Positions 3,052 to 62,936 are shown, counted from the first letter of the stretch. The stretch is DNA of 64,000 bases from Spirochaetales bacterium (GCA_015075425.1 JABTUL010000002.1:372001-436000); one strand, 5' to 3'. Notes: generated from the sequence alone by a model not told the origin. A program made the numbers and translations.

Positions 3052-4536
3052 ATGTGCAGCATGGCCCCTTCCGCTCCTTACCGATTTTCCCCCGTGATGG
3101 TCGGCATCATTCTTGGCGTCTTCTTAAATCCAGCGCTTTTGCTTGCAGACACGTCTGTGAGCCATGGTCGCATTCAGGTCACGCTCCCTGGAGACTGGCA
3201 GAAAAAATCGGGCAAAACTCTGGAATTGCGTCCCCGGGACCACGCAGATGCCCTGCTGATGATTGTTGAACCGGCCAGCGTAAGCACGGATCCAGCTACG
3301 TATCTCTCTGAGGGTGTTCAGAAAATGGAGGCGGGACGTAAGATATTGAAAGCGTTCCCGGCCCGCCCGCAGACAGGAAAGACCAAAAATGGAGTAGCTT
3401 ATACTTTCTGGGGGATCCGCTCCAGCGCTGCAGATGGCGAGCGTTTCAGCGGCTACTATGCCTTCCACCAGGGCGATGCTCGTCAGGTAGCGATTTTACT
3501 CTGTGGATCGCAGGAAACCTATACAAAATTGCTTAAGGAAGTGTCGGCGGCTTTTGAGCACTTGAGCTTTCAGGCCGACGATTCCGGAGCCAGCACGGCT
3601 ACAGCACCTCTCCGTCCGCTACGCGGCAGACCTTATTCTTATTTTAATTTTACCATGCATCTACCATCGGACTGGACCCAGGAAAAGGGTCGGACCGGAG
3701 GCGAGGCCTTCTTCCTGACTTCAGCAGGCCGTCTTCAACTGCGGGTTCCGGCTTCGGGCGATACAATGAGAACGGCGCTGATCCTTGAACCGGTTCAGGC
3801 TCGCAATGCTGCCGATGCCCTGCTGGGTATCCTGACCCGCCGCACCGACGTTGGCGTGCGTTACATTCAGGGCGTCCGCGGCTGGAAACCCTACTACCGC
3901 CACACCCAGAGCGTGAATGGCGGAGAACTGACAACCGTCGCTTGGACGGCAAAGGGAGACGATCAGTTTTATACAGGAGGAGCGTATTTACAGGGGAACG
4001 GCTATGCTCTGGCCATTGGAACGGGAATGCGTATCTATAAATATGACTTAATGTCTCATCCGGACCGCGTTCGCCATGATCACAATCGCTTTGCACAAAT
4101 TGTTCAGCTGCTTGCCTCCGCTGCAGCATCCCTCAGCTGGACCGGCGAAGGAAATCTGGATCAGGAAAAAATCAACTGGCTTACGACTAAAAAAACTCTG
4201 CGCTATTCCAATGAACGCAGTGCTTCATCGGGAAGCATGACGGCGTTTTTCAGCAAGCAGGCTTCCTGGGATTTTCATAACGATCGTACCGCAAATTATA
4301 AGATTGAAAGCCTGAATACTTTTCTGGATGTTTCTACCAATGCCTACGGGCGCCCGGATCACTCTTCCGGCTCCGGGGAATCCAACGCCCGGGGGAATCG
4401 AGCCGATTTTGAAGTGCGACAGAAAGGCAATCGCCACTATCTCATTTTGCGCTTTGCCAATGGATCGGGTTCAGTGCACGATATTGGTTTCCAACCATTC
4501 GTGATTGATAGCTATCAGGACGGATGCTGTTCCTGA
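3052..4536 (+). CDS. Secreted protein of unknown function
   Basis: 494 residues from 3052; an internal ATG at 3097 (MVGIILGVFLNPALLLADTS) gives a cleaner signal peptide ending at LLLAD, so mature protein begins near there. Two similar modules are visible: VSHGRIQVTLPGDWQKKSG and FNFTMHLPSDWTQEKG both open a 'TLPxDWxxxxG' strand followed by a ligand-like beta-rich segment. I do not recognise a catalytic motif. The last 73 bases of the gene lie in a 264-bp direct repeat that recurs at 6017-6280, so the C-terminal 24 codons exist twice in the window. Confidence 0.7.
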   Translation: MCSMAPSAPYRFSPVMVGIILGVFLNPALLLADTSVSHGRIQVTLPGDWQKKSGKTLELRPRDHADALLMIVEPASVSTDPATYLSEGVQKMEAGRKILKAFPARPQTGKTKNGVAYTFWGIRSSAADGERFSGYYAFHQGDARQVAILLCGSQETYTKLLKEVSAAFEHLSFQADDSGASTATAPLRPLRGRPYSYFNFTMHLPSDWTQEKGRTGGEAFFLTSAGRLQLRVPASGDTMRTALILEPVQARNAADALLGILTRRTDVGVRYIQGVRGWKPYYRHTQSVNGGELTTVAWTAKGDDQFYTGGAYLQGNGYALAIGTGMRIYKYDLMSHPDRVRHDHNRFAQIVQLLASAAASLSWTGEGNLDQEKINWLTTKKTLRYSNERSASSGSMTAFFSKQASWDFHNDRTANYKIESLNTFLDVSTNAYGRPDHSSGSGESNARGNRADFEVRQKGNRHYLILRFANGSGSVHDIGFQPFVIDSYQDGCCS

Positions 4537-4727
4537 AGGTGCGTCTCAAATCCACCGGATGCTTCAGCGAACAGGCACGTCCCCGGCCGCGATGATGGAG
4601 AGGCCCAGACCATCGCCTACATGGCTGGTATTCCCATAACCGAGCTTGCCTTCTGCGCCATCGCCCCAACAGCGTGTTGCCCCGGTTGTGAGAACGGCGC
4701 AGGTGTGGCTGCTGGCCGTTACCAGAG
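4464..4727. repeat. 264-bp direct repeat, copy 1
   Basis: This copy contains the 3' end of the 494-residue gene, the 28-bp gap, and the 3' end of an RCC1 gene on the minus strand. It matches 6017-6280 at all but two positions (C versus T in gcgtctYaaa, and C versus G in gcccSggttg). The copies are 1,553 bp apart. Confidence 0.97.
4564..4727 (-). pseudogene. Duplicated 3' fragment of the RCC1 lipoprotein gene
   Basis: This stretch encodes the last 54 or so residues of the RCC1 protein (ending AAGDVPVR) and has lost everything upstream, where unrelated sequence begins at 4728. One residue differs from the intact gene (TTGATRC here, TTRATRC in the intact copy). Other repeats of the RCC1 protein carry TGAVRC, so the fragment may preserve the older base. 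Confidence 0.9.
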
Positions 4728-4854
4728 ACCTGAGACCTGAGAGAGCATGCGCGGTCTGCGTACCATTAGCCCGCTTCCCGTCAAGCACGGGCGGGCCAGA
4801 GATCTATGATTGAATGGCGGTATTCATGTATTTAGTAAATAGATGAATACTTGG

Positions 4855-4886
4855 TATTTTCCACAGGGGCGCGGCTGTGGAAAATA
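4855..4886. repeat. Perfect 12-bp inverted repeat
   Basis: TATTTTCCACAG and CTGTGGAAAATA are exact inverse complements around an 8-nt GC-only spacer (GGGCGCGG). The repeat lies 72 bp before the DUF4160 start. It could be a regulatory hairpin, an operator, or an old element end. There is no trailing T run to support a terminator. Confidence 0.85.
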
Positions 4887-4958
4887 GGTTCTCCTGGAAG
4901 GCAATCTCGCTCCGGAAATGGCTTGCCTGCCTGGCGGAATCTCTGCATCTTGGGCCGT

Positions 4959-5219
4959 ATGCCAGTGGTATCCGAATTTTTCGGCATTCGTGTTGCGATG
5001 TTCTACGATGATCATTTGCCCGCCCACTTTCATGCAGTCTACGGAGAGCATGAGGTTATCGTGGATATAGCCGGCGCTCACATAATCAAGGGGATTTTTC
5101 CAGTCAATAAGCTCAAATTGGTTCTCGCCTGGTGTGAGCTCCATCGTGAAGAATTGATTCAGAATTGGGATCGTGCGCGGCAGCATGGGCCATTGCTCGG
5201 CATTGAGCCATTAAGATGA
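4959..5219 (+). CDS. DUF4160 protein
   Basis: 86 residues, the normal length of the family. The sequence MPVVSEFFGIRVAMFYDDH, then LPAHFHAVYGEHEVIVDI, follows the DUF4160 consensus, including the HFH pair. It ends WDRARQHGPLLGIEPLR, the usual 'i.PL' tail. The ATG at 4959 is where the family begins, although the frame is open from 4851. DUF4160 genes are nearly always followed by DUF2442 genes, and the pair has been proposed to be a toxin-antitoxin module; biochemical function is unknown. Confidence 0.85.
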   Translation: MPVVSEFFGIRVAMFYDDHLPAHFHAVYGEHEVIVDIAGAHIIKGIFPVNKLKLVLAWCELHREELIQNWDRARQHGPLLGIEPLR

Positions 5220-5527
5220 TGATGCAGATTGTTCAGGTTTACGCGCGACCAGACTGCAAAATCTACCTGTATTTTGCGAATGGTCAAGTCCGTTTGTACG
5301 ATGCGCGGCCTCTTCTGGAGAAAGGAGTCTTTCGGGTACTGAAAGACCCTGATTTCTTCATGAATAGGTGTACCGTCATGAATGGTACGCTGGCCTGGGA
5401 TATGACCGGAAATTATGATCCGACAAAATGCCTCGATCTGGATCCGGAAGTGCTTTACCAGAATTCCATTCTTGTCGGCGATCCGCTGGCGGAAAAGGAT
5501 AGCTTGCACCAGGGCGCGGGTCGCTGA
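5216..5527 (+). CDS. DUF2442 protein
   Basis: 103 residues; starts 4 bp before the upstream stop (ATGATGATG gives two or three possible starts). The core VYARPDCKIYLYFANGQVRLYD, written here as segments, then GVFRVLKDPDFF and GTLAWDMTGNYDPTKCLDLDPEVLY, matches DUF2442. The tail after VGDPLAEKD may be extended by rearrangement at the element end. Its coupling to DUF4160 implies the two proteins act together. Confidence 0.85.
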   Translation: MMMQIVQVYARPDCKIYLYFANGQVRLYDARPLLEKGVFRVLKDPDFFMNRCTVMNGTLAWDMTGNYDPTKCLDLDPEVLYQNSILVGDPLAEKDSLHQGAGR

Positions 5528-5732
5528 GGCGCAAGAACGCTGGCGCCGGCCCACTGCTCTTGACAGCACAAAAAGAATCGCAATCGATGGAGCACGCGCA
5601 CAATTGTTATTTCTGTATCTTTCAAACGCCAGCGCAGAGTCTCGGTATCGGGACCGGGAATTTTTTACCTTCTAAGAACTTACGGACCAGTTGGCCGCTT
5701 CCCGGTCCACCGAAAAACGGGACAACTGGTTC

Positions 5733-6017
5733 TTATCGGTAGTACTGGCACGGCAAAACCCCCGATTTGATGCCCCTTAAATTTGCGCCCCCCAGAAATC
5801 GGCGGGGATTGCGCATAACGGAATGGAAGGTTCGATTTCGCAGCCGCGCAAGGATCCAGCGCTGGACAACGAGGACCGCTGTTTCGACTTTCGCCTTGTC
5901 TCTTGGCCTGCGTACCCGGGCCGGGATCACGCAGGTATTGTAATGAATGGCCAGTTCCTGGTATGCTGGATTGATTTCTGGCTCATAAAGATCGGGACTC
6001 TTGACACCACTTTTCAA
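5733..6017 (-). pseudogene. IS21-family IstA transposase fragment
   Basis: The translation contains KSPDLYEPEINPAYQELAIHY, broken here only by my wording, followed by CVIPARVRRPRDKAKVETAV and RWILARLRNRTFHS. This is the C-terminal part of the IstA catalytic core, with the PRDKAKVE signature that carries the last acidic residue. Both the start of IstA and the C-terminal region after NRTF are missing, and no istB is present. The 5' end stops exactly where repeat copy 2 begins at 6017. Confidence 0.8.
5749..5785 (-). repeat. 37-bp IS21-associated repeat, copy A
   Basis: Read on the minus strand, this 37-bp stretch matches 63752-63788 on the plus strand at 35 of 37 positions. It abuts the IstA fragment here and unrelated sequence there, so it is likely an internal or terminal piece of one IS21 lineage. 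Confidence 0.75.
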
Positions 6018-6280
6018 TCGGGTTCAGTGCACGATATTGGTTTCCAACCATTCGTGATTGATAGCTATCAGGACGGATGCTGTTCCTGAAGGTGCGTCTT
6101 AAATCCACCGGATGCTTCAGCGAACAGGCACGTCCCCGGCCGCGATGATGGAGAGGCCCAGACCATCGCCTACATGGCTGGTATTCCCATAACCGAGCTT
6201 GCCTTCTGCGCCATCGCCCCAACAGCGTGTTGCCCGGGTTGTGAGAACGGCGCAGGTGTGGCTGCTGGCCGTTACCAGAG
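6017..6280. repeat. 264-bp direct repeat, copy 2
   Basis: The second copy of 4464-4727, with two mismatches. Here the intact RCC1 gene end is preserved, while the 73-bp end of the 494-residue gene is a detached tail. Confidence 0.97.
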
Positions 6281-7484
6281 CCACGTCAGCGCCCACAGGC
6301 ACGTCACCGGCATCGACAATGTTAGGATAGATTCCGGCACCTGACCCCACCGACTGTGTGCTGTTGTAACCCAGTTTGCCATTGGTCCCGTTACCCCAGC
6401 AGCGCACTTTTCTTGTTGAAAGAAGTGCACAGGTATGATTGACTCCTGCACTGATCTGCGAAACACTCCCGCCAACCGGAACATCGCCAGCACTTATGAT
6501 GGAAGTTCCACCGGCACCAACATCGTTTACGTTGCCATAACCCAGTTGACCCAGGGATCCCTGTCCCCAACAACGCACTGCACCCGTATCGAGCAAAGCA
6601 CAGGTGTGCGCCGCTCCCAGAGAAATTTGGACAGCGCGGCCGCCAAGAGGCACATCCCCGGCAGCCACAATCGATGTTCCGCTGTCACCAACAGTGACGG
6701 TATTGTTGTAGCCCAGCCGTCCGTTGGTCCCGTAACCCCAACAGCGAACATTTCCATCACTGAGAAGCGCGCAAGCATGCTGCGATCCCGTGGCTATCTG
6801 CACCACACTGCGAGAGCTGTCTACTGTCACATCGCCTTTGGAAATGATGGAGGGGCCAACACCATCGCCGACAGTATCTGTATCGCCATAGCCCAGGACG
6901 CGATTCATTCCATCTCCCCAGCAGCGCACTTTGCCACTTACCAGCAGCGCACAGGTAAAAAGGTCGGCTGCGGCCACGGAATCTACAGTTTCACCCACGG
7001 GCACATCACTTATATTTTCTATATTGGTTGTCACGCCGCCCATGGCTGTGGAAACTGTACTGTTGTCTCCCAGCTGACCATCGTCATTGAATCCCCAGCA
7101 ACGCAAAGCCTGGTTATATACAGCACAACTGAATTGGTGGCCGGCAGATACATGCCGGGGAGAAACGCCCAGGTTCACCGGGCCGGCCGCAAGGATGGAC
7201 GGGCCAATGCCATCGCCCACAGCAGTAGTATTGTTACGCCCCAGCCTGCCGTTGCTATTGGGCCCCCAGGAGACCAGAACTCCATCAGGAAAAAGCCTCA
7301 GATTGTGTCCGTCCCGACCAATGCTGAGCTCCCCGTAGAAGGAAGAATGAGCCCCTTTCACGGGAAAAAGGGCAAAGTAGCTCAAAGGATTGCAGGACAG
7401 GTCATAAGGCAGACATTCGGGGCTTACCAGCTGACAGCCCAGAGAAAGGGCCGGTAAACAGCAAAGGAGAAGGCGACGCATCAC
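6117..7484 (-). CDS. RCC1-repeat lipoprotein
   Basis: 455 residues. The N-terminus MRRLLLCCLPALSLGC is a lipoprotein signal with lipobox LSLGC. Seven RCC1-like blades follow, each about 50 residues, marked by W-G at SWGPNSNG, RCWGFNDDG, RCWGDGMN, RCWGYGTNG, RCWGQGSLG, RCWGNGTNG and RCWGDGAEG. Each is followed by a 'LGYGNTxxVGDG' loop and an 'HTCALL' strand. The fold should be a seven-bladed propeller exposed on the cell surface or in the periplasm, suited to protein binding. The chain stops right after the last blade. The 3' end lies in the 264-bp repeat. Confidence 0.9.
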   Translation of the reverse strand: MMRRLLLCCLPALSLGCQLVSPECLPYDLSCNPLSYFALFPVKGAHSSFYGELSIGRDGHNLRLFPDGVLVSWGPNSNGRLGRNNTTAVGDGIGPSILAAGPVNLGVSPRHVSAGHQFSCAVYNQALRCWGFNDDGQLGDNSTVSTAMGGVTTNIENISDVPVGETVDSVAAADLFTCALLVSGKVRCWGDGMNRVLGYGDTDTVGDGVGPSIISKGDVTVDSSRSVVQIATGSQHACALLSDGNVRCWGYGTNGRLGYNNTVTVGDSGTSIVAAGDVPLGGRAVQISLGAAHTCALLDTGAVRCWGQGSLGQLGYGNVNDVGAGGTSIISAGDVPVGGSVSQISAGVNHTCALLSTRKVRCWGNGTNGKLGYNSTQSVGSGAGIYPNIVDAGDVPVGADVALVTASSHTCAVLTTRATRCWGDGAEGKLGYGNTSHVGDGLGLSIIAAGDVPVR

Positions 7485-15343: not shown

Positions 15344-16036
15344 ATGGCCCGGAAGTCGGTAAGTATCGCACTTACGCTCGTGATTCTGTGTTGCTCTGGA
15401 AGGAACGAACCCGCGCAGACGCCTGTTGAATCAGAGAACAAGAGATATGTAGATGCAGAGGGAGGACTGCGAATGCGGGCGTCTGCAGACGCGGCAGGTG
15501 AAATAATCGTAGTTATACCCACATCGTCGGAAGTCCTCGTAATCGAGGAATCAGGAAATGATATTTCGATTGGAGGCAAGAAAGGAAAATGGACAAAGGT
15601 ACGGTTTGAAGGTCATTCGGGTTGGGTATTCGGAGGATTTCTTTCTCTTGCGCCCAAACCAACCTGGTCTCTGAAAGGCGCGAAATTGGAAGAGGTCGAT
15701 TTTGATAACTGTGAGTCCGCTGGCATCAGGAATGTTCTTCATTTTGAAGATGAGACGAGGGTAAAGTATTCAAGTGATCCCAATTGGTCCGAGTCCCATG
15801 AAATCTTAGGAAAATACCAGCAAAATGGAAGCAACACAATCAAGATTCGTTGGACTTCTGAAACGCTATACCAGGCTACCAGTGATTATGAGAGAAAGCC
15901 CTATTTAACCAGAGCTGCTTTTCCCGATATGGTCTCTTTAACCCGCTGCGATTGCGGTGATACATTAGCCATTTGCGGCGAAAGAGGGAGCAGCTTTGGC
16001 CGTTTCAAAAAAATGGGGCGTACCCGCCAATCGTAG
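15344..16036 (+). CDS. SH3-domain lipoprotein, 3' end replaced by an IS end
   Basis: 230 residues. Signal and lipobox (LTLVILCC) are followed by an SH3b-like domain: GGLRMRASADAAGEIIVVIP and KWTKVRFEGHSGWVFGGFL. Its C-terminal half has four Cys that may pair. The last codons (about GRTRQS) and the stop come from the inverted repeat of the ISKra4 element starting at 16016, so the native C-terminus is lost or shortened. It probably sits at the cell envelope. Confidence 0.75.
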   Translation: MARKSVSIALTLVILCCSGRNEPAQTPVESENKRYVDAEGGLRMRASADAAGEIIVVIPTSSEVLVIEESGNDISIGGKKGKWTKVRFEGHSGWVFGGFLSLAPKPTWSLKGAKLEEVDFDNCESAGIRNVLHFEDETRVKYSSDPNWSESHEILGKYQQNGSNTIKIRWTSETLYQATSDYERKPYLTRAAFPDMVSLTRCDCGDTLAICGERGSSFGRFKKMGRTRQS

Positions 16037-16045
16037 CGCCGGGGT

Positions 16046-17190
16046 TCAGGCGGCCGACCGGCCCCATTGCTGGTCCCAAGATCCGTCGTAGAGCATCTGG
16101 CGGAGCCGGATAATAGCGGATGCGCCGTCGATGGTCCATTTCATTCCGGCCTGCTTGAGCCGGGATTGGACGAGGTACTTATGAGCGCTCTCGACCGCAC
16201 CGCTCCCAATGAAGAATCCCATGCGGCGGAAATGCGGATAGCGCATCTTATCCAGGCGACTTTTGTAATAGTTGTGTAATTCAATGATTGGGGTCTGGAC
16301 TCGGGGCCGGCGCTTGGCTTCGAAGAGTAGACGTTCGCAGACCGCTTCGGCCATTCCGTTCCATAACATTTCTCGAAGTGGCTCCACCCATTCCCTGACG
16401 CTTGCGGTTTCATTCTCCCCGAAGATGGCTTTCCCGCAATTCCAGAGGTGTTCACTTGCGTGGTACCAATCCAGAATGTGCACTGACCGGGGAAAAAGTC
16501 TTTCGCGCATATGGTCCAGCCAGTCCGCGCCATCGCTTATGAAGACGATCGTTTGCGCGCGCATGCTGCCGGCTTCCGCAGCCACTCGCTTCAGGAGTTG
16601 TGCGAAGTGCTCTACGCCCTTACCGATTGATGTTGCGAAGCGTTTTTTTGTAATACGGCATATTTCTTTTCCTTTTGCAGACTTTCTCCTGATGATATCC
16701 TCTGTACGAAAAACAACTCCAACTTTTACCTCCTTGTACTCGGTTTTGAGCCGATTTTCAGGGGTTTTTCCCCGAATCGGCACCATGCCACCGTCTGCCT
16801 GAACATAGAGAATTTCTGTCTTCTCAGCAGACACCGTACCGAACTCTTTGCTTCTGTATTCATCTGCAGCACAGAATGATGCTCCATACGCCTCGGCCGT
16901 TTCGCGCAGCATAGTCTCTGTGATATCGACTTTTTCAAAGCGTCCGAGATAATGACGCGCCTGATCAAAGGGGACGGCTGCGCCCAACCAGCACAATAGC
17001 TCAGCAAATTTTCCTGACGCCGAATGAGGTGTCAGTCCGAGGATTTTCTCCAGTGGGAATTCTGTGCAGCGGCAGGATTTGTTAGTGCACGTATAATATG
17101 CACGATGAATTCCAATAACACCAGTTCGGCCCAGATTTAGTTTGCGCTCTCGAGTTCCCTGGAATTTCTGCGGGCTTCCGCATTCAGGAC
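16046..17190 (-). CDS. ISKra4 transposase, catalytic part (orfB frame)
   Basis: The frame runs without a stop from the A9 run near 17193. It begins with a zinc ribbon (CPECGSPQKF, then CTNKSCRCTEFPLEKILGL). The catalytic core follows: ILYVQADGGMVPI (Asp), TIVFISDGADWLDHM (Asp), ILDWYHASEHLW, and the C-terminal GSGAVESAHKYLVQSRLKQAGMKW segments with the Glu (AVES). The DDE layout, the DWYH motif and the 'GSG.VES..K....R.K..GM.W' motif are those of ISKra4. No start codon is placed well, so it probably depends on frameshift or slippage from orfA. Confidence 0.85.
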
Positions 17191-17411
17191 ATTTTTTTTT
17201 CGCCGGCCTTCAGGCCCGGTCCTATTTTTCCCAGAATCTTCAGCAGAACTTCAGGATGGTCTACATGGTGACGGATCATCCAATCCTGAATTTCCGCCAG
17301 GTTTGGAGCCGTCCGGTCCGGGTGTTCCTCCCCCTTCCGGAGACTTTCCTTGAAACGCTCTCCCAACTCCTCGATTTCCGCATCTGTGAAAAACATCAGC
17401 ACCCCCTGCAA
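17184..17411 (-). CDS. ISKra4 transposase N-terminal ORF (orfA)
   Basis: 75 residues (MFFTDAEIEELGERFKESL onward from the internal Met). It ends GLKAGEKKMS just after a run of nine A on the coding strand. Reading on in the +1 frame gives KKKCPECGS, the zinc ribbon of the transposase. Slippage on the A9 run would join both parts into one protein of about 450 residues; a mutation is the other explanation. Confidence 0.65.
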   Translation of the reverse strand: MQGVLMFFTDAEIEELGERFKESLRKGEEHPDRTAPNLAEIQDWMIRHHVDHPEVLLKILGKIGPGLKAGEKKMS

Positions 17412-17615
17412 TTACAGGGAAGCTTGGGCCAGACGGCCGCCGGTACCAGCACTTTTTCCTACGATTGGCGGGTGCGCCCTCGGATTTGCTGGTGTCCCGT
17501 TTTCTTCCTAAATACATTGACAATGGGGGTGGCTCGGCCAAGCTTGCTCCAAAACTGCATTAACCTTTGACCTTTGAATGCCGACAAACGGTACGAGAGA
17601 ATCCAGTAGCATTAC

Positions 17616-18861: not shown

Positions 18862-19040
18862 GTGATTGCGTTGCCACTGCGTATAACTCACGGTTCTCCG
18901 CTGCGGGCCTGCACTCCCTTGCGGTCGTTCGGGCTCCTCGGGTCGGCGCACTCTGCGCGGAACGGCTCACCAGTTCGCCTTTTCCGCTCCGTGCGGATGC
19001 GCGCCGGGTTTTGTGGATTCGTCTGGCGCGCACCGCAACG
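18862..19040 (+). other. GC-rich folded intergenic sequence, possibly a decayed integron attC
   Basis: This stretch directly after the mazF stop has no ORF of merit. It starts GTATAAC (like an R'' box) and contains several short inverted arms (GCGCACTCTGCGC; CCGCTCCGTGCGG; GGCGCGC near 19020). It ends near GCAACGTGCTTG, where an R' box (GTTRRRY) would be expected but is not matched. The position right after a promoterless toxin-antitoxin cassette fits integron cassettes of spirochetes, but the boxes are too poor for a firm call. Confidence 0.25.
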
Positions 19041-19152
19041 TGCTTGACCACATTTGCCCAGCGGGCAAACGTCGGAGAACCTGGTCGTTTAGCGCCATTC
19101 CGCTGAAATTTCTTTTTGTGTCTCAGTTCTCCTTTTCCTCCTTGATATTCGT

Positions 19153-19815: not shown

Positions 19816-20184
19816 ACAAGATCTACCCATCAGCGGAATGACCTGGCCAAAAGAATCGTTGAAGAAGAGATTCGGAACTGATCTGATGTTATCATTGTAC
19901 CCATTCAAGTGATTGCCTGTTCTTCCTGCGGAGAACGTTACTACAGCCAGGGAGGCAGTCTCTTGCGTCGGTAAAGGATGAATCCGGCAAGGCACACGGG
20001 CCGGCGAATGGGAACCACGGCGGGCACGACGAACTGATGTTCCGAATGCGCGGTCTGAGGGTGTACGGAACCGCGAGATCGGCTGGAGGGGGCGCATAGC
20101 CCGGGTTGCTGTTATGCGAAACGGGTCGCGAGAAAATCCAGGCTTCTTCATTGACTGCTTCTGCCTCCCCGGGCAATCTTGCCC
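19816..20184. other. Intergenic stretch, nothing recognised
   Basis: 369 bp between hicB and the Rpn relic. Several short GC-rich stems can be drawn (for example GCGCGGT with ACCGCG near 20050-20080), but there is no ORF, tRNA or element end that I can support. Confidence 0.5.
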
Positions 20185-20501
20185 GTGCCCCGCTTCAAGC
20201 TGCGCTTCGATGAATTTTTCAAGCGAATGGCTGTGGCCTTTTTCGAGCTATTCGGGTTTCGCGTCACAACAGAGATAGAGATATTCAAGCTGCCCAAAAA
20301 GGCCGATGTGATTGTCGTCTCCACAGAGAGGCTCAACATTCAGGCCATTGAGACCTACTTCACCGTATTTGGCTACTTCCGGGAGCATAGGGAAAGTTGG
20401 AAACGGCGCGCCGCTTGCGCAAACGTGGCCTGGAACTTGAAATCATCGCAGAAGACGCCAACCTGACGCTGGAGGAGCTAAAGGCCGCAGGGATCGATTA
20501 G
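20185..20501 (+). pseudogene. Rpn-family (PD-(D/E)XK) transposase-like relic
   Basis: From GTG 20185 the frame reads VPRFKLRFDEFFKRMAVAFFE and continues FRVTTEIEIFKLPKKADVIVV, then AIETYFTVFGYFREH, the N-terminal part of the Rpn-like nuclease family. The frame then jumps: RLRKRGLELEIIAEDANLTLEELKAAGID to a TAG at 20501 is the family's C-terminal tail. The central nuclease part is deleted. The first 25 residues are almost identical to the minus-strand gene ending at 61810. Confidence 0.75.
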
Positions 20502-61809: not shown

Positions 61810-62271
61810 TCAATCGATGAGACCCACCTTGCGCAGATCAAGTACGGTTAGGCCCGTTGAGCGCAAGATCAGGTCGAGCGGCAAGCCCTCTTTGAGGAGT
61901 TGCGTGGCGGTGTCAAGCTTGCCCTTGAGTTCGCCCTCGAGCTTCCCCTCTGCCTTGATTTTTTCATAGTAAGGCATGATAAGATCTGTGATGTCGGCTT
62001 CCATGGCTGTTGGCATAATTCCCTCCCACAAATCCTCTGGCTCAAAACTCTTGATCCGTATATACAGCGATTCCTTGAGTTTGTCGAGGATATTTTTCTC
62101 GAGCCCGGAAGGCTCCGGACGCTGGACTATCTGCGCGAGAGCAGGCAGGCGCTCCGGCGGAGCGTACGTGAAGATTTCGACTTCTGTTGTGACGCGAAAC
62201 CCGAAAAGCTCAAAAAAGGCTACTGCCATTCGCTTGAAGAATTCATCGAAGCGCAGCTTGAAGCGGGGCAC
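61810..62271 (-). CDS. Shortened Rpn-family (PD-(D/E)XK) protein
   Basis: 153 residues from GTG 62271. The first 30 residues (PRFKLRFDEFFKRMAVAFFE...) equal those of the relic at 20185. After residue 33 (VEIF) the usual nuclease core (DVVVVS and the following ExK strand) is missing, and a helical C-terminal part follows with a KAEGKLEGELKGKLDTA coil and TVLDLRKVGLID end. The frame is intact, but the active site is probably lost. It may be an internal deletion product. Confidence 0.6.
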   Translation of the reverse strand: MPRFKLRFDEFFKRMAVAFFELFGFRVTTEVEIFTYAPPERLPALAQIVQRPEPSGLEKNILDKLKESLYIRIKSFEPEDLWEGIMPTAMEADITDLIMPYYEKIKAEGKLEGELKGKLDTATQLLKEGLPLDLILRSTGLTVLDLRKVGLID

Positions 62272-62371
62272 AGGAAAGAGGTCGCTGTGGATGGAGTAGG
62301 GTCAATCAGAATCCGCGATAAATTCTTCTTGCTCACCGGAATGGAGGATCCAGACGGAAAATCATGGCAAT

Positions 62372-62521: not shown

Positions 62522-62936
62522 GCTATGATTGCCACGCGGGATCTGGTGAACGTAGCGACCGGTGAGATTCGGGAAATCAATTTTATCGAGTCCCGCTCTT
62601 CCTTTATTCAATGGCGAGAAGCGGTCCTCCGCCACCTGGTCCGCAAGAAGATCCTCAGCCCGACAGAATCTTCATCCTTTCGCAAAGCCTACCGCAAGGG
62701 TTTCCACTGCTACTTCCAGCCCATCAACGGTAAAGAAAATGATGTACTCTTTCCGTACCGCTGAGTATCTGGCCAGCGGATTTTTCCACAACAGCCAGAT
62801 CCTGAAGGTTGATCGTGAAAAGAAGACGGTGACTTTCCAATACCGCAGCTGGATGGAGCCGGGCAGCCGCAAGAAGCACTATACCACACTCACCATAAGC
62901 GTCTTTGAATTCATAGCCAGGATGCTGTATTACTTT
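62522..62936 (+). pseudogene. IS91-type (Y2) transposase C-terminal remnant, frameshifted
   Basis: In one frame, SSSFRKAYRKGFHCYFQPINGK (in segments) then KENDVLF; after a +1 shift near 62752 the match continues RTAEYLASGFFHNSQILKVD, then VTFQYRSWME and EFIARMLYYF. The order corresponds to the end of the IS91/IS801 transposase. The N-terminal two-thirds, with the catalytic Tyr pair, is missing. The middle part recurs as a short relic at 591-649. Confidence 0.65.

Follow-up and report, generated by a model that had tools for sequence, protein, structure and literature searches.

The 64-kb stretch of a Spirochaetales bacterium genome analyzed here (GCA_015075425.1, JABTUL010000002.1:372001-436000; hereafter the window) carries, between two convergent genes, a 1,289-bp insert at positions 4728-6016 that is bounded by two 264-bp direct repeats. 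The insert is a mosaic consisting of a hairpin-rich leader, a DUF4160/DUF2442 gene pair encoding a putative toxin and antitoxin, a piece of an MscS-type channel gene, a decayed end of an insertion sequence (IS), and a scrap of the transposase IstA. Positions are those of the window, and sites elsewhere in the genome (G000) are given by contig (C1-C4). Along the locus, the features are as follows:

3052..4536, plus strand: gene A, encoding a family-restricted protein of 494 amino acids (aa); from 4464 onward (last 24 codons) it runs inside repeat copy 1
4464..4727: copy 1 of the 264-bp direct repeat, with the native end of gene A and a displaced leftover of the RCC1 terminus
4728..4958: non-coding, hairpin-rich leader (DNA fold z-score -4.9 for 4728-4900)
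4959..5219, plus strand: DUF4160 protein, 86 aa, putative toxin of the DhiT type (Pfam PF13711, 67.5 bits, cut-off 23)
5216..5527, plus strand: DUF2442 protein, 103 aa, putative antitoxin of the DhiA type (Pfam PF10387, 34.5 bits, cut-off 23.9)
5528..5593: 66-bp stretch with no match in its own genome or in the other DNA compared
5594..5666: 73-bp piece of an MscS-type channel gene, 100% identical to G000:C1:513678-513750
~5667..5819, minus strand: decayed, internally deleted IS-end segment, recognized by DNA similarity to segments on C1 and C2
5820..6016, minus strand: scrap of IstA (IS21 transposase), truncated at both ends, recognized by an NCBIfam IS21 profile
6017..6280: copy 2 of the 264-bp direct repeat, with a displaced leftover of the gene A terminus and the native end of the RCC1 gene
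6117..7484, minus strand: intact RCC1-repeat gene, 455 aa (Pfam WD40_RLD/RCC1); its last 164 bp lie inside copy 2

The two repeat copies (4464-4727 and 6017-6280) comprise 264 nt each, are spaced by 1,553 bp, and share 99.2% identity. They differ at two positions only, namely 4547 (C in copy 1, T in copy 2) and 4683 (C in copy 1, G in copy 2). With a Blast E value of ~1e-132 for the pair, a chance similarity is excluded. The ends of the insert coincide exactly with those of the repeats. A first-pass annotation, made from the sequence alone, had described two 264-bp copies with two differences, each holding the ends of both neighboring convergent genes; the coordinates, the number of mismatches, and the gene ends all proved correct. 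Inside the window, this pair is the sole long, near-identical direct repeat. Furthermore, a genome sample composed of the window and 40 further 20-kb stretches across all four contigs (864 kb, 21% of the genome) yielded one overlapping tandem repeat but no further direct repeat with a gap between its copies, at thresholds of 80 bp and 94% identity. We conclude that the repeat-insert-repeat structure is real and unusual for this genome. Other similarities involving the window are a pair of 111-bp inverted copies at 20177-20287 and 62169-62279 (89% identity) and a 225-bp match of 62525-62749 to C1 ~678651-678875 (98% identity).

The stop codon of gene A (4534-4536) is followed by a 27-bp gap and then by the stop of the RCC1 gene, which lies at 4564 in copy 1 and at 6117 in copy 2. 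Seven gene A homologues from the same family, with 27-30% identity, could be aligned up to residue 493, and the tail of gene A, FVIDSYQDGCCS, matches F.IDGF..GCCR, the C-terminal motif of all seven. The 24 codons in copy 1 are thus the native end of gene A. Because this C-terminus is conserved and the RCC1 gene is whole in copy 2, the ancestral junction held a single copy, as had been proposed in the first-pass annotation, and the original order was gene A, one 264-bp stretch, and the RCC1 gene. The RCC1 part of copy 1 and the gene A part of copy 2 are then by-products. This order is deduced from the integrity of the genes and from the homologues, with no empty site seen: DNA comparison of the locus with 40 relatives gave no match beyond short RCC1 or IS pieces, and a contig scan for an empty site with gene A as the query returned no match.

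The two genes of the DUF4160/DUF2442 pair, both scoring above their Pfam cut-offs as anticipated, are arranged with the toxin gene first and overlap by 4 bp (stop at 5219, antitoxin start at 5216). The DUF4160 start at 4959 agrees with the homologue alignment. Against the NCBIfam model toxin_DhiT (NF048015), the DUF4160 protein reached 71.4 bits, which is under the equivalog cut-off of 100. By these profile scores, the pair falls within the DhiTA kind but outside DhiT as narrowly defined by NCBI. The DUF2442 protein is 54-62% identical to partners adjoining DUF4160 genes at four other loci (L043, L044, L124, and L125), and the closest relatives, which belong to members of the same family and order and to Chlorobiaceae (51-52% and 61-62% identity), are paired as well. 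Relatives of the DUF4160 protein were also found on Thermus and clostridial plasmids, with 51% identity to the Thermus homologues. PADLOC made no call for the pair.

Two characterized systems provide the closest comparison. DhiTA of Dickeya dadantii 3937 is a type II toxin-antitoxin system composed of DUF4160 and DUF2442 proteins, for which toxicity, neutralization, and autoregulation have been shown (PMC8198452). It shares with the present pair both domains, the unusual toxin-first order, and an overlap of a few bases (gene distance of -3 bp in Dickeya, PMC8198452). The pair described here differs in that its proteins comprise 86 and 103 aa, the toxin scores 71 bits against the cut-off of 100, the genes are embedded in a mosaic of scraps, and the system is known from its sequence. 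The second system is the Persistence-Enhancing Module of Thermus thermophilus plasmids, a tandem of DUF4160 and DUF2442 open reading frames (ORFs) in which the first is toxic and the second is protective, being needed to tolerate the first; the module prevents plasmid loss (PMC12724237). In contrast to the Thermus module, the present tandem is chromosomal, lies between direct repeats, and has no replication gene nearby. As a separate observation, an ORF pair resembling a Phd/VapB-type antitoxin and a VapC-type PIN toxin, recognized by reading the sequence only, is located at 617-1467, 3 kb to the left of the insert locus.

The remaining parts of the insert are non-coding or fragmentary. The leader contains the perfect 12-bp inverted repeat reported previously, which we located at 4855-4866 and 4875-4886, and the left junction shows a short tandem, ACCTGAG ACCTGAG (region 4721-4747). 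No Rfam match was obtained within 4000-7000. The source of the MscS piece is an internal part of an intact ORF, assigned to MscS by Pfam, that is still in place on C1. The IS-end segment is 94% identical to C1:679136-679255, 73% identical to C1:172697-172848, and 91-95% identical to C2:437326-437388 and C2:435752-435788. An element on C2 that encodes a 443-aa rve transposase has sequences related to this segment at its two ends, and the relatives of the segment on C1 adjoin IS91-like transposase remnants. Neither the 73-bp MscS copy (5594-5666) nor the IS-end segment (~5667-5819) had been mentioned in the first-pass annotation. The IstA scrap, which had been, corresponds to positions 186-252 of the NCBIfam IS21 profile NF033546 (E 4e-18) and is 68% identical to the annotated IstA of Acidithiobacillus caldus, which bears out the assignment; the right repeat junction is exactly where its reading frame breaks off. 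Apart from this truncated piece and the IS-end fragment, the insert contains no transposase gene and no recombinase. No inverted repeat joins the insert ends, and no second copy of the insert unit was found in the genome.

With moderate confidence, we regard the insert as most likely the one-off scar of a faulty chromosome-break repair, that is, one event of duplication with insertion in the intergenic region of two convergent genes. Two sister-chromosome copies of the locus would have been broken, one at ~4727 and the other at ~4464, and the broken ends would have been joined via captured DNA, namely a piece with the DhiTA-type pair, the MscS fragment, the IS-end fragment, and the IstA fragment. 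As the broken ends would overlap by 264 bp, that stretch would now be present twice, and the event would have been tolerated with both neighboring genes left whole. End joining or template switching may have produced the structure in one event. A single event, or recombination with a circle, is preferred because the boundaries of the insert and of the repeats coincide exactly. Break repair with captured pieces is favored over a circle because the mosaic includes a perfect copy of part of an ordinary gene, the source of which is still in place. The recent copies diverge at 2 of 264 positions for the repeats and at none of 73 for the MscS piece; at the repeat rate, the probability of observing 0/73 is 0.57. 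Both divergences thus agree with each other, as under equal age. Furthermore, only three dispersed copy pairs (45-400 bp, at least 97% identity) were detected in the 864-kb sample, one of them being the insert case itself. Because such copies are rare, the MscS fragment is unlikely to be unrelated to the event. The genome also encodes Ku (332 aa, 264 bits) and LigD (758 aa, 494 bits; domain order polymerase-phosphoesterase-ligase), which lie adjacent to each other at G000:C1:1831628-1834787 (L080) and both score above the curated cut-offs. Bacterial end joining has reportedly been linked to the acquisition of heterologous DNA, in work of 2019 by Dupuy and coworkers.

The locus resembles duplication-with-insertion rearrangements with filler DNA in its direct target duplication and in the captured patchwork placed exactly between the copies. 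It differs from them in that the filler includes a complete toxin-antitoxin operon, the joints are without clear microhomology, and the event was not caught in the act. Several observations weigh against break repair as the origin. The only possible microhomologies at the joints are a TTT at 5664-5666, between the MscS and IS-end pieces, and the tandem at the left joint (4721-4747). Identical source copies of the pieces other than MscS were not found. The pieces could have been assembled over several older events, because the similarity of the IS-end segment to its relatives is limited to 91-95% and the genome lacks a DNA copy of the IstA piece. The presence of Ku and LigD is no proof of their use. 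Finally, in the flanks examined, none of the seven gene A homologues was accompanied by an RCC1 gene, which deprives the proposed ancestral order of an empty site for comparison.

The first-pass annotation had proposed that a 1,553-bp circle carrying 264 bp of host homology was integrated by a single, Campbell-type crossover. Such a circle might have come from an earlier excision at this site in a different cell, or it might have been a small replicon with acquired host DNA. The geometry is exactly that expected, as direct repeats of host homology flank the insert, and this part of the proposal stands, although any duplication with insertion made in one step would give the same geometry. In addition, plasmids of Thermus and others, small ones among them, carry relatives of the pair, which act as a plasmid persistence module (PMC12724237). 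The circle itself is not borne out: the insert has no replication gene or recombinase, the acquisition of 264 bp of exactly this locus is left unexplained, and a small circle under selection would not be expected to carry scraps of MscS and IstA. Moreover, a search of 72,556 plasmids gave no such circle or unit; of the insert, the IstA part alone appeared among the best DNA matches. The locus thus shares with Campbell-type integration the repeat-insert-repeat geometry, but it differs in its mosaic contents, in the unexplained origin of the homology, and in that no replicon or circle was seen. We consider this origin possible but unlikely. It had also been stated that the pair moved without its own recombinase; the lack of a recombinase is correct, whereas nothing shows movement as a unit. 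A repeat-bounded toxin-antitoxin "addiction island", which would leave as a 1,553-bp circle through plain homologous recombination and re-enter the same or similar loci, the pair thereby spreading and persisting with no more than host recombination and its addiction effect, is a clearly more doubtful proposition.

Two further routes are, in our judgment, improbable to about the same degree. A 264-bp tandem duplication could have arisen first and been followed by insertion at its junction, or the middle of a larger duplication could have been replaced. Small tandem duplications are common in bacteria, and the IS pieces indicate that the insert has a history. However, the insertion would have had to strike the exact boundary, as the insert ends coincide with both copy ends, and no microhomology at the 264-bp ends accounts for the duplication. 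The two-step alternative offered in the first-pass annotation is unlikely for the same reason, as it would need a landing exactly on the repeat boundary. Alternatively, linear DNA could have been taken up and recombined through one-sided homology, either by homology-facilitated illegitimate recombination or by interchromatid pairing during transformation. Pneumococcal transformation makes duplications by interchromatid integration (PMC3784515), and another report describes illegitimate insertion driven by one-sided homology in several species (PMC3240628). This route, however, needs a donor fragment that already joined the locus to the insert, and the resident MscS copy would require a second source. 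That the 264 bp were duplicated by a misjoin during assembly is very improbable. In favor of such an error one may cite the state of the assembly (four contigs, completeness 96.3%, contamination 2%); against it stand the two mismatches between the copies, the location far inside a 1.07-Mb contig, and the resolution of near-identical IS copies of ~1.46 kb in the same assembly. The least probable of these explanations is transposition generating a 264-bp target duplication by a new mechanism. It would account for the exact direct duplication at both insert ends, but the insert ends are not matched, as inverted repeats or otherwise, a transposase and a second genomic copy are lacking, and the 864-kb sample contains no similar repeat-insert-repeat structure. 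Known kinds of mobile element were rejected as well. An insertion sequence or composite transposon does not apply, given that matched inverted ends and a transposase gene are lacking and that the duplication is 264 bp instead of short. For rolling-circle (IS91-like) mobilization, a consistent model could not be built from the order of the insert, and ori/ter ends could not be defined. An integron cassette was rejected for the insert taken as a whole, as whole-genome searches gave no match of the insert to the attC repeats of a resident array; the sole attC core-like string in the insert is the 12 bases GTTATGCGCAAT on the minus strand (5819-5808). We conclude that the locus is not evidence for a new kind of mobile element and is a good natural example of a pair lodged by duplication-with-insertion.

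Direct repeats of 264 bp should recombine with each other, and the insert should therefore be removable by recombination between them. The pair may retain the insert by penalizing its loss. Such a penalty is plausible because the pair and both neighboring genes are all intact and because plasmid loss is prevented by the related module of Thermus. The locus shows a route by which a toxin-antitoxin pair can become fixed in a chromosome without mobility genes of its own, and at which both neighboring genes survive because their ends were duplicated. As the insert is in principle easy to lose, its retention allows a direct test of whether chromosomal pairs stabilize unstable DNA.

The resident array mentioned above is a very large, integron-like region located elsewhere on C1, with the following extent:

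G000:C1:2324382-2455388 (L073-L078): attC-like repeats with an upstream tyrosine recombinase

Dozens of attC-like repeats, all in one orientation and spaced by ~0.7-1.2 kb, extend over ~129 kb (C1:2326466-2455388, of which C1:2360000-2384999 was not covered). They are related to a stray copy at window 18873-19101, and a few more occur at the end of C3. Upstream of the array lies the gene of a tyrosine recombinase of 347 aa, with 168 bits against the integron-integrase model, for which the cut-off is 265; the match is split, with approximately profile positions 167-232 missing. According to a 2013 survey, Treponema were the only spirochaetes with integrons (PMC3607928). For the citramalate synthase encoded in the window, the Leptospira model was the closest, a hint that the organism is a spirochaete related to Leptospira. 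Dispersed IS-end-like segments (window 5808-5819, L067 ~3138-3152, and L069) start with GTTATGCGC(A/C)ATCC, a sequence similar to the core site of the array attC repeats, and they may be stray cassette starts. The second DUF4160 gene of the genome, ~40% identical to that of the insert, lies inside the array at G000:C1:2438288-2438506 (L077:13288-13506). The multi-copy IS of ~1.46 kb is represented in the window at 16014-17492, with seven more nearly full-length copies (97-100% identity) and additional fragments on C1-C4.

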